Source of the DNA: Claveliimonas monacensis
GTDB lineage: Bacteria; Bacillota; Clostridia; Lachnospirales; Lachnospiraceae
DNA length: 64,000 nucleotides
Direction: 5' to 3'
NCBI RefSeq assembly: GCF_014982975.1
Contig: NZ_JADCKL010000002.1
Coordinates: forward strand, 62,001 to 126,000
The translations under genes and the position numbers were made by a program. The notes below the pieces were generated by a model. That model was not told the origin of the DNA. It saw nothing but the letters and a program-made list of their open reading frames with translations, and did no database searches. Positions 52,546 through 56,210 of this stretch are shown piece by piece (the stretch's first letter is position 1; each line of letters begins with the position of its first letter).

Positions 52546-52570
52546 AGAGAGCAGGAAAATCCTGCTCTCT
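52546..52570 (-). terminator. Terminator of the ATP-grasp/racemase/Mur ligase unit
   Basis: On the minus strand AGAGAGCAGGA and TCCTGCTCTCT form a perfect 11-bp stem with a 3-nt loop, followed by TGTTATTTG. It lies 47 nt after the Mur ligase stop. Confidence 0.75.
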
Positions 52571-52616
52571 TTCCAAACGATAATCCATTTTTCACAGCGA
52601 CAGCAGGGTGACCAGA

Positions 52617-54137
52617 TCATCTCTCGTCATACTCTGCCAAATATTTTTTCACATAGTCCACATCGGACGGGCAGTCCAGGTAGTCGCTGCCGTACTTCTG
52701 ACGGGTCTCAGCACCTTTTCCTGTGACAAGGAAGAGGGTCTTGCCCTCAGAGCTTTCGATGGCAGCCTTGATCGCCTCTCCCCGGTCCTCGATCATCTCA
52801 TATGGACAATTCTGCGCCTTTACATACTGGGCAATATCAGCAGATATGTCTGCCACCGGCTCATATCCCGGATCTTCCGCCACAAGATAGACTTTCTTTG
52901 CGTACTGTCCGGCCACAGTCCCAAGATCGCGGCGGCGGATCAAGGCCTTCTTTCCCGGGCAGCCAAAGATTGCGACAATATCGTAATCCGGATACTCCTC
53001 TTTCATAGAAGAGAACAGTTTTTCAAAGCTCAGTTTATTGTGGGCGTAGTCCACGATAGCAATCTTGCTTTTATCTCTGCTGGCATAGAGTTCCATGCGT
53101 CCGCTGGAACGGGCCCTCTCAAGACCGGAGTGGATATACTCCCGCGGGATGCCCAGCTTTGTGGCCGCCGCTATGACGCCCAGGGCGTTTTCCACATTGA
53201 AAAGTCCGGGCATGGTGAGTACAAACTCCTCGTCAAAATCTGCGCATTTCACAGAGAACAGCGTCTCGTGCCCGTCTTTTCGGATATTGTAGGCGTAGAA
53301 ATCTGCCTCCGGGTTCTTCGTGCTGAAGGTAAAATACTCTTTCGCGTCTTTGGCGTATGTCAGGATACGCTCAATATGATCTGCGTCCAGGTTGACAAAA
53401 GCCCGGTCCGCCTTTGCAAACATCCGCATCTTGGATGTGAAATAGTCCTCAAAGTCTTCGTGTTCGATGGGGCTGATGTGGTCCTCCGAGATATTGAGGA
53501 AGATAGCCGCATCAAACCGCATATCGTCCACCCGGTGATATTTCAGCGCCTGGGATGAGACTTCCATCTCTGCGTACTCAATACCGCAGTCCAGCGCATT
53601 TCTCAGGTGCTGCTGCAGCTCCACTGCCTCCGGTGTGGTGATGTGGGACTCCACCAGGCTCTTTCCGTCATAGATGTCAATGGAAGAAATGACGGCGCTC
53701 TCTTTTTTCCCCAGAGCCTCCATGTAATCATCCACCACAGCCTTCATGTAGTAAGCGGAGGTAGATTTTCCTTTTGTACCGCCGATTCCTGTCACCACCA
53801 GATTCTCCCAGGGACGGTTGTAGAAGAAATTGGCCAGCACGGACATGGCCTCCCTTATGTCTTTCACAAGGATACAGGGCACCTGCTGCTCCAGGTCAAA
53901 GGTCTTCTCACTGATATAGCAGACAGCTCCCCGCTCCACTGCCTCCCGCAGATAGGTCATCTTGAAAGCCGCGCCCTTGCAGATGAACATGGTGTCAGCC
54001 CCTGCCTCTTTTGAGTTGTAAGTAAGGTTGCGGATCACATGGTCCTCTTCCCCCTCCACTCTGTTCTCCAGGAGCATACCCCTCTTTTCAAGCAGCTCCA
54101 CATAATCCTTCACGGTATAATACTGCATCTTTCCCAT
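52617..54137 (-). CDS. MurE-like Mur ligase with altered amino-acid-selectivity motif
   Basis: 506 residues with the three Mur-ligase domains. The N-terminal UDP-binding domain is ~1-105. The ATPase has GTKGKST (120-126), NISEDHISPIEHEDFEDYFTSKMRMF and DYAHNK (363-368). The C-terminal domain is ~345-500. MurE adds the third residue to UDP-MurNAc-L-Ala-D-Glu. The meso-DAP DNPR motif is here EDPG (421-424), so the added amino acid is probably neither DAP nor the usual Lys. It is third in a unit with an ATP-grasp ligase and an Asp/Glu racemase. Confidence 0.85.
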   Translation of the reverse strand: MGKMQYYTVKDYVELLEKRGMLLENRVEGEEDHVIRNLTYNSKEAGADTMFICKGAAFKMTYLREAVERGAVCYISEKTFDLEQQVPCILVKDIREAMSVLANFFYNRPWENLVVTGIGGTKGKSTSAYYMKAVVDDYMEALGKKESAVISSIDIYDGKSLVESHITTPEAVELQQHLRNALDCGIEYAEMEVSSQALKYHRVDDMRFDAAIFLNISEDHISPIEHEDFEDYFTSKMRMFAKADRAFVNLDADHIERILTYAKDAKEYFTFSTKNPEADFYAYNIRKDGHETLFSVKCADFDEEFVLTMPGLFNVENALGVIAAATKLGIPREYIHSGLERARSSGRMELYASRDKSKIAIVDYAHNKLSFEKLFSSMKEEYPDYDIVAIFGCPGKKALIRRRDLGTVAGQYAKKVYLVAEDPGYEPVADISADIAQYVKAQNCPYEMIEDRGEAIKAAIESSEGKTLFLVTGKGAETRQKYGSDYLDCPSDVDYVKKYLAEYDER

Positions 54138-54184
54138 TTAACTGATCTCCCTCAATGATTTTCTTATGTATGTTTTTACTGGTT

Positions 54185-54901
54185 TTATTGATATTCTGCC
54201 CCTGAGCGCAGGATGGCCTCCCGCACCAGCACATCCATGGCATCCAGACATATGGTGGGTATCTCGTGCTTGCCCTTGAACACAGAGAGCTCGGTACAGG
54301 CCAGGATCACTGCATCGCAGTTCTTTCTCATAAACTCACTCATAACCCGGTCAAATTTGGCCCGGTCTCCTCTCTTTCCGCTCTTAATGTCATCATAGAT
54401 CAGGGACATCACATCTCTTTGCCGCTCCGGTGAAGGTTTTACCGGCGTCACGCCCAGCTTTCGGCATTCTTTGTGATAGATCCGGGAACCGATGGTCCCG
54501 TCTGTCCCCATAATGCCGATCCGCTTCACATCCGGGAGCTCTCTCACTGCATATGCCACACTCTCATGGATCATGTCAATGATAGGAATGGACACAGCCT
54601 TTTGGATCTGCTCATAATAATAGTGGGATGTATTGCAGGTGATGGCAATATTGGCTGCCCCCAGCTTTTCCAGTATCCTTGCATCCTCCTGCAGCATATG
54701 GATCAGCTTTTCGCTGTCCCCGCTCTTGATGGCCTCTGTCCGGTCCGGTATGTCCGCATGGCTGAGGATCACCATGTTGATGTGATCCTGGTCTTTCTGC
54801 GCCTTTGTGTGGGCGATAACATTCTCATAGAAGTAGCTGGTTGCCTCCGGCCCCATGCCTCCGATCACGCCAAGTATCTTTTTTTCTTTTCCTTCTCCCA
54901 T
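54185..54901 (-). CDS. Aspartate/glutamate racemase family protein
   Basis: 238 residues. Both catalytic cysteines are present: Cys89 in AITCNTSHYYY and Cys202 in ILACTELSV. The N-terminus ILGVIGGMGPEATSYFYENVI is the aspartate-racemase (RacD/YgeA) signature. It makes a D-amino acid, most likely D-Asp or D-Glu, in the cytoplasm. GGGAG lies 5 nt before the ATG. It sits between the ATP-grasp ligase and the Mur ligase with gaps of only 27 and 47 nt. Confidence 0.9.
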   Translation of the reverse strand: MGEGKEKKILGVIGGMGPEATSYFYENVIAHTKAQKDQDHINMVILSHADIPDRTEAIKSGDSEKLIHMLQEDARILEKLGAANIAITCNTSHYYYEQIQKAVSIPIIDMIHESVAYAVRELPDVKRIGIMGTDGTIGSRIYHKECRKLGVTPVKPSPERQRDVMSLIYDDIKSGKRGDRAKFDRVMSEFMRKNCDAVILACTELSVFKGKHEIPTICLDAMDVLVREAILRSGAEYQ

Positions 54902-54928
54902 TGGCTCTCCCTTATTATTCCTGACAGT

Positions 54929-56140
54929 TTACTGGTAATATTTGTTGAAATAGCCGTACTGTTTCCAGTGTGTTTTCAGCATCCTAAGGAAACGCATAGG
55001 CTTCAGATCGCCCCGCATGAAGACAGGATTGACCATTTTCCCCTCTTTCACAAGCTTCTTCATCTTCGCCACCATGGCCGGATCTTTCACATGCTTGTAG
55101 GCAACGCCCTTTGGTACGGTCATCCAGAGATGCTCCTCTGTGGCCTCCTCGTAGGGCAGTTCCCGGTTGTAGATGTAATCCTCCACAAAGTATTTTGCCA
55201 CATTGAACCCGGAGCCTGTCACATAGTAGTTGCTGCGCCCCTGTCTTGTGTTGATCTCAAAGAAGCGGTAGGTACCGTCCCTCTTGTCATATTTGATATC
55301 AAAGTTGGAAAATCCCACATAGTGGAGATCCTCCAGAAGATTTTTCACTCTTCCCATGAGCTCCTGATTTGGCTCTGTGATGATGACCGCATGGTTGCCC
55401 AGGCCGTGGGGAGTGTGTTCCTCAAGAAGCACATGTCCCAGGCACATCATCTTCACCTTCCCGTTCCGGTCAGAGTAGGATGTGAGGACCCTCATGTACT
55501 CGTCATTTCCCGGGATCATGTCCTGGATGATCAGATCATCGTCATATCCCGCATCGTAGATCTGGGTAATGATCTCCTCCAGTTCCTTCCTGCTGCCCGG
55601 CTTGTAGATCTTGTTCTGTGTGGGGAACGGGTGCTCCCAGTAGGCGATGCTGTTGGACGGTTTCAGGATCACCGGATAAGGGAAATCGCAGGCAAAGTCA
55701 AGCCCCATCTCCTTCTTGTATACAATGGTCTTTGGATAATCCACGCCGTGCTTCTCGCAGAGCTGGTAAAACCGCTCCTTCTGCTGCAGGCTGTCCATCA
55801 GATCGAAGTCGATGTAGGGAGCAATGACATTGTCCGGCAGCTCGTTTTTATGACGGCTTGCCAGCGCCACATAGCTGTCCCCGCAGCCGATGAGCAGGAT
55901 TTTCTTATCCTTATGCTCCCCGGCAAAACGACTGATCCTCTCCAGGAAATAGTCGTCCGTATCGATCTTCGGATTGCCCTCGTATATCGTGATCTGGCTG
56001 TTGAAGCTGGGGCCTGTCTGGTACTTGCCAAAGACGTACGATTTTACCTGATACTGCTGGTAAAATGCCCGAGCCACACTGTAAGTATTAATATCCCCGC
56101 CAAGCAGGACGGGAATGAATTCTCTTTCTTTAAATTCCAT
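54929..56140 (-). CDS. ATP-grasp carboxylate-amine ligase resembling D-aspartate ligase
   Basis: 403 residues. The N-terminal domain starts FIPVLLGGDINTYSVARAFYQQYQVKSYVFGK. The ATP-grasp core has PVILKPSNSIAYW, DDLIIQDMIPGNDEYMRVL and FEINTRQGRSNYYVTG (the metal-binding Glu-x-Asn pair). This layout recalls the D-aspartate ligase (AslA) of enterococci, which activates D-Asp and attaches it to the Lys of the peptidoglycan precursor, and which is found beside an Asp racemase. Here it is first in a unit with a racemase and a MurE-like ligase. Substrate is inferred, not shown. Confidence 0.75.
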   Translation of the reverse strand: MEFKEREFIPVLLGGDINTYSVARAFYQQYQVKSYVFGKYQTGPSFNSQITIYEGNPKIDTDDYFLERISRFAGEHKDKKILLIGCGDSYVALASRHKNELPDNVIAPYIDFDLMDSLQQKERFYQLCEKHGVDYPKTIVYKKEMGLDFACDFPYPVILKPSNSIAYWEHPFPTQNKIYKPGSRKELEEIITQIYDAGYDDDLIIQDMIPGNDEYMRVLTSYSDRNGKVKMMCLGHVLLEEHTPHGLGNHAVIITEPNQELMGRVKNLLEDLHYVGFSNFDIKYDKRDGTYRFFEINTRQGRSNYYVTGSGFNVAKYFVEDYIYNRELPYEEATEEHLWMTVPKGVAYKHVKDPAMVAKMKKLVKEGKMVNPVFMRGDLKPMRFLRMLKTHWKQYGYFNKYYQ

Positions 56141-56179
56141 GATTTCTGCCCTTCTCTCCGTACAGATTTATACTAGCAT

Positions 56180-56210
56180 ATTATAACGCAGGAATACCCT
56201 GGCTTGTCAA
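56180..56210 (-). promoter_or_regulatory. Promoter of the ATP-grasp/racemase/Mur ligase unit
   Basis: TTGACA (56205-56210) on the minus strand is followed by TATAAT (56180-56185) with 19-bp spacing. An overlapping TTATAA gives 18 bp. It is the only good promoter in front of the three genes. Confidence 0.6.

Follow-up and report, generated by a model that had tools for sequence, protein, structure and literature searches.

A probable D-Asp cross-bridge pathway with its own MurE in Claveliimonas monacensis, and a second, diaminopimelate-type MurE that goes with sporulation genes

Lysinibacillus (Bacillus) sphaericus, a member of the Bacilli whose wall was studied by biochemistry in the 1970s, has a vegetative wall with L-Lys and D-Asp and a spore cortex with meso-diaminopimelic acid (mDAP). 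In Lactococcus lactis, according to PMC4155827, the ATP-grasp enzyme AslA adds D-Asp to L-Lys3, racD lies in the operon and AsnH amidates that D-Asp; in AslA/RacD, as in Aslfm of Enterococcus faecium, an ATP-grasp D-Asp ligase and an Asp racemase share an operon. Here we describe a comparable run of three genes in a 64,000-nucleotide stretch of the Claveliimonas monacensis genome (Lachnospiraceae; assembly GCF_014982975.1, contig NZ_JADCKL010000002.1, positions 62,001 to 126,000), hereafter the window. Unlike the AslA/RacD and Aslfm systems, the run includes a MurE, and the genome holds a second, mDAP-type MurE. The protein families, the place of the first MurE in a tree, the gene linkage, the separate second MurE and its co-occurrence with spore markers led us to consider it likely that the trio makes peptidoglycan of the A4 type, with L-Lys or L-Orn in the stem and D-Asp as the branch, and that the spore is the reason why the mDAP-type MurE persists; the substrates and the division between vegetative and spore wall are what we infer from these observations. 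Two position-3 chemistries would then meet in one spore-former, as in L. sphaericus. Unlike that biochemical case, the pattern reported here is a genome-level one, found mostly in Clostridia and known from genes alone.

The three open reading frames lie on the minus strand. The first (54929..56140) encodes an ATP-grasp carboxylate-amine ligase of 403 residues, by homology a probable D-aspartate ligase (AslA/Aslfm-like). After a gap of 27 bases follows an amino acid racemase of the Asp/Glu type (54185..54901; 238 residues), probably an aspartate racemase by its family scores, and after another 47 bases a protein of 506 residues (52617..54137) that we call MurE2, a UDP-N-acetylmuramic acid (UDP-MurNAc)-tripeptide synthetase that TIGR01085 and a MurE tree place probably with the lysine/ornithine type. 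A preliminary description of the window had noted the close packing of these genes, Cys89 and Cys202 of the racemase, and the GTKGKST and EDPG motifs of the Mur ligase. All of these features are present, GTKGKST from residue 120 and EDPG from residue 421, and the racemase has further cysteines at 146, 195 and 218.

MurE2 lies above the MurE subfamily cut-off (TIGR01085, 293.4 bits vs 257.3) and reaches no equivalog cut-off, the diaminopimelate and lysine models scoring it alike (348 and 341 bits). Instead of the DNPR or DNSR motif of mDAP-adding enzymes it has EDPG (residues 421-424; codons at 52866..52877, minus strand). In an alignment to five MurEs this motif falls on DDPA of Enterococcus faecalis, DDPG of Latilactobacillus curvatus and EDPA of Collinsella aerofaciens, and on DNPR in E. 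coli and B. velezensis. MurE2 therefore has no counterpart of Arg416, the E. coli residue that contacts the carboxylate of mDAP and that is replaced by alanine in Staphylococcus aureus MurE (DNPA; PMC3829189); according to the same paper, the motif at this position is by itself insufficient to set MurE specificity. Two further features are common to MurE2 and the E. faecalis, L. curvatus and C. aerofaciens enzymes: a shortened loop near the N terminus (FC-KG-xF), and a lysine where DNPR enzymes have the arginine of GGDRD/GGNRS. In a quick tree of 73 MurEs, with a chosen set of EDPG-type proteins and no inferred root, one side of a branch with SH-like approximate likelihood ratio (SH-aLRT) support of 100 consists of 36 rows, namely the EDPG-type proteins and these three references, and the DNPR/DNSR enzymes are on the opposite side. 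All trees in this study (MurE, ligase, RpoB) are quick trees, several of which carry long-branch warnings.

On these grounds MurE2 is probably a lysine/ornithine-type MurE. Since it shares its side of the tree with the L-lysine MurE of E. faecalis, and since L. curvatus has DDPG at the EDPG site, the simplest product would be a stem containing L-Lys or L-Orn to which D-Asp is attached as a branch. Compared with lysine-adding MurEs (E. faecalis; S. aureus, from PMC3829189), MurE2 is alike in its side of the tree (E. faecalis), the missing arginine, the short loop and the lysine. It differs in having EDPG rather than DDPA or DNPA, in its 32% identity to E. faecalis MurE, in scoring 341 bits on the L-Lys MurE equivalog NF010628 (cut-off 536) and in being fused to ArgB in some relatives. 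On NF010628 E. faecalis MurE passes with 681 bits, and the enzymes of L. curvatus (463) and C. aerofaciens (323) fall short as well. The MEVSSQA motif and an xPxEH insertion were considered as marks of the lysine type and dropped, as both also occur in the DNPR MurE of the same genome. In the Peptostreptococcaceae genera Peptostreptococcus and Intestinibacter (L097, L102-L104) the ligase and racemase adjoin a different type of MurE, with DNPD and similar motifs, that branches nearer the DNPR enzymes and apart from the lysine side; this is apparently an independent loss of the same arginine, or an independent change of specificity. In one member of the genus (G002, L032 4740-6256) the match to MurE2 is split in two, and the gene seems to be interrupted.

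The ATP-grasp protein reaches no NCBIfam cut-off. Its homologues in Lactobacillus crispatus, L. curvatus and Limosilactobacillus fermentum match at 32.9-38.9% over 98-99% of the length, the L. curvatus protein, annotated as a carboxylate--amine ligase, at 36% over 99%. D-Asp bridges are known in these species from taxonomy. The L. curvatus ligase gene comes after aspS and an amino acid racemase gene, and that of L. crispatus after an asparagine synthase gene. Of 79 residues invariant in 25 relatives of the ligase, the three Lactobacillaceae proteins keep 66, 65 and 59 (L. curvatus 65), and all three keep the same 56. The protein is therefore a probable D-aspartate ligase, its likeness to AslA and Aslfm being one of description and the sequences compared being the Lactobacillaceae homologues. 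The racemase scores 205 bits on TIGR00035 (cut-off 93) and finds the aspartate racemase 1jfl as its best match in the PDB (E 2.9e-40), which makes it a probable aspartate racemase; an amino acid racemase adjoins the ligase gene here, across the 27-base gap, and at 56 of 80 ligase loci. The comparison that the preliminary description drew with a D-Asp ligase working beside an Asp racemase is thus borne out by these ligase homologues, one of them next to a racemase gene. As a side observation, the gene immediately upstream of MurE in C. aerofaciens (L208), like that immediately upstream of the ligase in L. crispatus (L105), encodes an asparagine synthase, perhaps an AsnH-like enzyme that amidates D-Asp. 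Moreover, the ligases of Coriobacteriaceae/Collinsella assemblies (L069-L071) are 64% identical to that encoded at 54929-56140 of the window, which suggests transfer between phyla.

The window genome (G000; 3.0 Mb, 99.8% complete), with Lachnoclostridium sp. An118, Eubacterium sp. ER2, Mordavella massiliensis and Claveliimonas bilis as close relatives, has one further MurE over the subfamily cut-off. It is encoded on another contig (C31), carries the motif SDNPREE and is followed by a gene that, from its sequence, we take to be priA. A canonical, mDAP-type murE thus exists elsewhere in the genome and the gene in the window is not its sole murE, in keeping with the earlier suggestion of an alternative UDP-MurNAc-peptide beside a canonical MurE, for which MurE2, on the lysine-type side, would be the candidate.

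Linkage was counted at 80 of 116 ligase loci, on the same strand and within 1.7 kb downstream (five loci end within 2.5 kb). Racemase and MurE both follow the ligase at 50 loci, MurE only at 19, racemase only at six and neither at five; ATP-grasp and MurE genes therefore occur together at 69 of the 80, and the linkage of the genes is beyond chance. At 15 of the 80 a DNPR murE and a priA-like gene come after the trio, in the same orientation and no more than about 1.3 kb away. The ATP-grasp gene and two MurE genes are present in all 11 genomes of the genus, and relatives of the trio occur in further Clostridia and in Coriobacteriaceae, so that the pathway is not the strain-specific variant envisaged at first. 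Among 61 relatives, 15 have a strong ligase match (E <= 1e-100), 13 of them with two MurEs; the other 46 comprise five with two MurEs (G017, G025, G041, G049 and G056), 39 with one and two with none. A class-wide sample holds the ligase in 33 of 393 genomes, G000 included. Two genomes (G390, L272; G056, L201) have an additional MurE with DNPK beside a DNPR MurE, and G017 (L195, L196) has a DDPG MurE on the lysine side and a DNSR MurE, with no strong ligase homologue in the genome.

In many relatives without spore markers, the MurE2-type gene is the only MurE found. Examples of a ligase-linked, non-DAP sole MurE are Eubacterium ruminantium FB3002, E. brachy and the isolates AC2028, P6A3 and YSB2008. 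The two-wall precedent of L. sphaericus was our reason for testing spore genes. We used SpoIVA and sigG (E 1e-70 or better) as markers; for sigG, only 8 of 78 genomes exceed the curated cut-off, G000 itself scoring 411 vs 457. The census took in the genomes of 68 of the 80 ligase loci, 12 being left out by choice. In the discovery set of 72 genomes, 69 have a non-DAP MurE, the rest being G092 (SpoIVA-positive, no MurE match) and G039 and G110 (DNPR only). A DNPR/DNSR MurE is present in 36 of 36 SpoIVA-positive and 3 of 33 SpoIVA-negative genomes, 30 have neither and none has SpoIVA without it (Fisher p 1.7e-16, with kinship ignored). Two of the three exceptions, G104 and G114, have a sigG match, and their SpoIVA may be missing through incomplete assembly.

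We then drew a held-out set of 32 new genomes, after the idea had been written down. A DNPR/DNSR MurE is present in 17 of 17 SpoIVA-positive genomes, four of them without a clear non-DAP MurE, and in 0 of 15 SpoIVA-negative ones; sigG (E 1e-70) agrees with SpoIVA in 32 of 32. Combined, 95 genomes with ligase and non-DAP MurE show the DNPR/DNSR enzyme in 51 of 51 with spore markers vs 1 of 44 without. In this count sigG places G104 and G114 among the spore-positive genomes, whereas SpoIVA taken by itself would make them exceptions. The 95 do not include G092, G039 and G110, nor G260 and G356, whose only MurE is of the DNSR type, G304, which has just a DNPR MurE and its ligase at the edge of a contig, or G390, with a DNPR, a DNPK and a more distant third match. 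G068 (DDPR and EDPR) was counted as non-DAP, and counted as DAP it would be one more exception; in G093 the second MurE copy does not cover the motif, the MurE matches of G145 and G197 lie just below the cut-off (253 and 256.5 bits), and G197 and G219 have no ligase locus for the tree. On the ligase tree, the combined data give 10 independent pairs, of which 9.8 on average go the same way and 0 the opposite way (median p 0.002). An RpoB tree of 66 genomes (the rpoB match is missing in 10 of 76) has 8 and 9 changes and seven supported pairs, 6.9 the same way and 0 opposite (median p 0.016). On this tree, the sister of the genus (G015, support 95) has a single, non-DNPR MurE and neither spore marker. 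The preliminary description did not notice that the mDAP-type MurE goes with sporulation genes. According to PMC11406416, 29 sporulation genes are common in gut Lachnospiraceae and absent from rumen and oral members (Meehan and Beiko, 2014); this contrast fits the spore-negative rumen genomes of our census. Two side observations belong here. The racemase adjoins the ligase in three genomes with a DNPR/DNSR MurE only (G110, L093; G260, L290; G356). In Coprococcus comes (G061) the best sigG match, at C36:46676-47242, is a fragment with an in-frame TGA, and spoIVA is full length; a recent loss of sporulation, with the DNPR MurE still there, is possible.

In the pathway that we favour, MurE2 would extend UDP-MurNAc-L-Ala-D-Glu by L-Lys or L-Orn, dibasic amino acids that lack a distal carboxylate. 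The racemase would make D-Asp, and the ATP-grasp ligase would couple it to the amino group of the side chain, so that a cross-bridge of D-Asp results. The trio would thereby build the vegetative wall, and the mDAP-type MurE would be kept for that of the endospore. A clue to the dibasic amino acid comes from three families (f33, f53 and f68) in which MurE2 is part of a fusion protein of about 783-830 residues with acetylglutamate kinase (ArgB) as its C-terminal part. Four such proteins were read (L358-L361, from G182, G126, G147 and G250); their ArgB parts match PF00696 and score 224.5-234.7 bits on TIGR00761 (cut-off 151.3), and a separate argB exists elsewhere in all six fusion genomes tested. 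Acetylglutamate kinase is an enzyme of ornithine synthesis, so the fusion points to an L-Orn stem in those families and possibly to the channelling of ornithine into peptidoglycan. Ornithine via argB cannot be assumed everywhere, as 11 of 33 genomes tested have no argB at E 1e-30. Extended further, the idea is that many gut Clostridia are two-walled: growing cells with Lys or Orn and D-Asp bridges, an mDAP-type MurE that is retained only for the mDAP of the endospore and is lost with sporulation, and, in some lineages, Orn from the MurE-ArgB fusion. For this broader claim we see the chances as only slightly better than even.

Several observations weigh against this picture. As for MurE2, its best equivalog is the diaminopimelate ligase NF001130 (348 bits, under the cut-off of 715), a model that L. 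curvatus MurE passes with 898 bits, and the L. curvatus and C. aerofaciens records read diaminopimelate ligase, E. faecalis alone being named an L-lysine ligase. The case is slightly weaker because MEVSSQA and xPxEH do not discriminate and two of the three reference MurEs are named diaminopimelate ligases; for the window species both Lys and Orn, and both D-Asp and D-Glu, are allowed. As for the spore, the pair test on the discovery set is not significant (six pairs, 4.7 the same way, 0 opposite, median p 0.0625). G098, a metagenome-assembled genome labelled Atopostipes, has a DNPR MurE and neither spore marker; the ligase of G015 groups with that of G098 on the ligase tree, away from this genus, so the G015 trio may have another history. 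Four SpoIVA-positive genomes (G039, G110, G260 and G356) carry the ligase and only a DNPR/DNSR MurE, which our model leaves unexplained. In most Claveliimonas-group copies, a sigma-A-like TTGAC-17-GA(C/A)AAT lies upstream of the DNPR murE, which in this group directly precedes the priA-like gene, and both features make it probable that the DNPR murE is transcribed in growing cells. The promoters were read by eye as sigma-A-like and not obviously of a sporulation type, with no systematic sigma-E/G scan made. Finally, a passage of PMC11406416 gives Coprococcus peptidoglycan as mDAP without an interpeptide, with Ezaki (1994) as its source. Both MurEs are present in C. comes and C. catus, and if these were the species tested for mDAP, the vegetative reading fails for them. 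That statement, in the passage available, names no tested species, and Table 1 of PMC11382707 gives no peptidoglycan type for Coprococcus.

The Coprococcus statement, together with the sigma-A-like promoter and the priA linkage of the DNPR murE, would fit species with two MurEs that keep an mDAP vegetative wall, the trio being expressed at a low level or conditionally and adding a minor Lys/Orn-D-Asp component. We regard this as unlikely. The ligase-bearing SpoIVA-negative relatives are mostly without a DNPR MurE (30 of 33 in the discovery set, 15 of 15 held out), and since none was found there, the non-DAP MurE must build their wall; moreover, 0 of 51 genomes with spore markers and a non-DAP MurE lack the DNPR enzyme, which mere redundancy does not explain. 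Redundancy is also the premise of streamlining, in which one of two equivalent MurEs was lost by genome reduction in non-sporulating lineages, with no functional link to the spore. Of the 44 genomes that lack spore markers, 31 are indeed smaller than 2.5 Mb. Our sampling through the ligase gene, by which lineages that lost the trio instead escape view, also favours streamlining and counts against our own reading. The split between genomes with and without markers nonetheless holds in all four genome-size bins (below 2.0 Mb, 7 of 7 with markers have the DNPR MurE; at 3.0 Mb or above, 0 of 5 without), and we give streamlining little credence.

A different question is which acid the ligase attaches. 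The racemase exceeds the cut-off of the cysteate racemase model CuyB (NF052483, 210.4 bits vs 190), a further point against D-Asp, and Lys-D-Glu and Orn-D-Glu cross-links are known in Bacillus, as a passage of PMC9781867 states; the same architecture could thus supply D-Glu, or cysteate. The CuyB name is not decisive, because the model separates poorly (the L. curvatus racemase beside the ligase scores 185), and the nearest functional precedent, AslA/RacD of L. lactis, uses D-Asp (PMC4155827), so that another acid has in our view a slim chance. The preliminary description had also raised the possibility that the trio makes a non-peptidoglycan conjugate; a secondary metabolite is a comparable alternative. 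We find either hardly credible, given that many genomes yielded no MurE other than MurE2 and that the DNPR murE and priA come after MurE2 at the 15 loci mentioned above.

The signals that flank the trio can be described briefly. Upstream of the ligase gene, at 56210-56180 on the minus strand, lie the perfect hexamers TTGACA and TATAAT of a sigma-A-like promoter, as first described; their spacer of 19 bases falls outside the accepted 16-18, which is why the promoter scan did not list the site, and makes it weak evidence. The terminator placed after MurE2 is indeed a hairpin with a 12-pair stem (52571-52545, minus strand; hairpin scan), of the intrinsic-terminator type, but such sites are no commoner in the region than in shuffled sequence (9 vs a mean of 8.9).

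Most likely the operon is a D-Asp-bridge (A4-type) pathway with its own lysine/ornithine-type MurE, which would be an established chemistry in an unfamiliar context. The novelty for us lies in the genome with two MurEs and in the mDAP-type MurE that goes with sporulation. No paper among the literature matches listed, mostly non-subscription, dealt with this cluster or connected a pair of MurEs with sporulation, and a search for Claveliimonas and peptidoglycan together found no paper. In genomes that have another MurE, the distribution of the mDAP-type MurE resembles that of a sporulation gene, and the old question of why the endospore cortex is of the mDAP type becomes a genetic test. Additionally, the results are a warning that the annotation of a MurE as diaminopimelate ligase is alone no proof of an mDAP wall in Lachnospiraceae. 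The host recognises muropeptides with mDAP and those with Lys through separate receptors, NOD1 sensing mDAP peptides. Therefore, if our reading is true, the growing cells and the spores of one commensal could give the host different signals.

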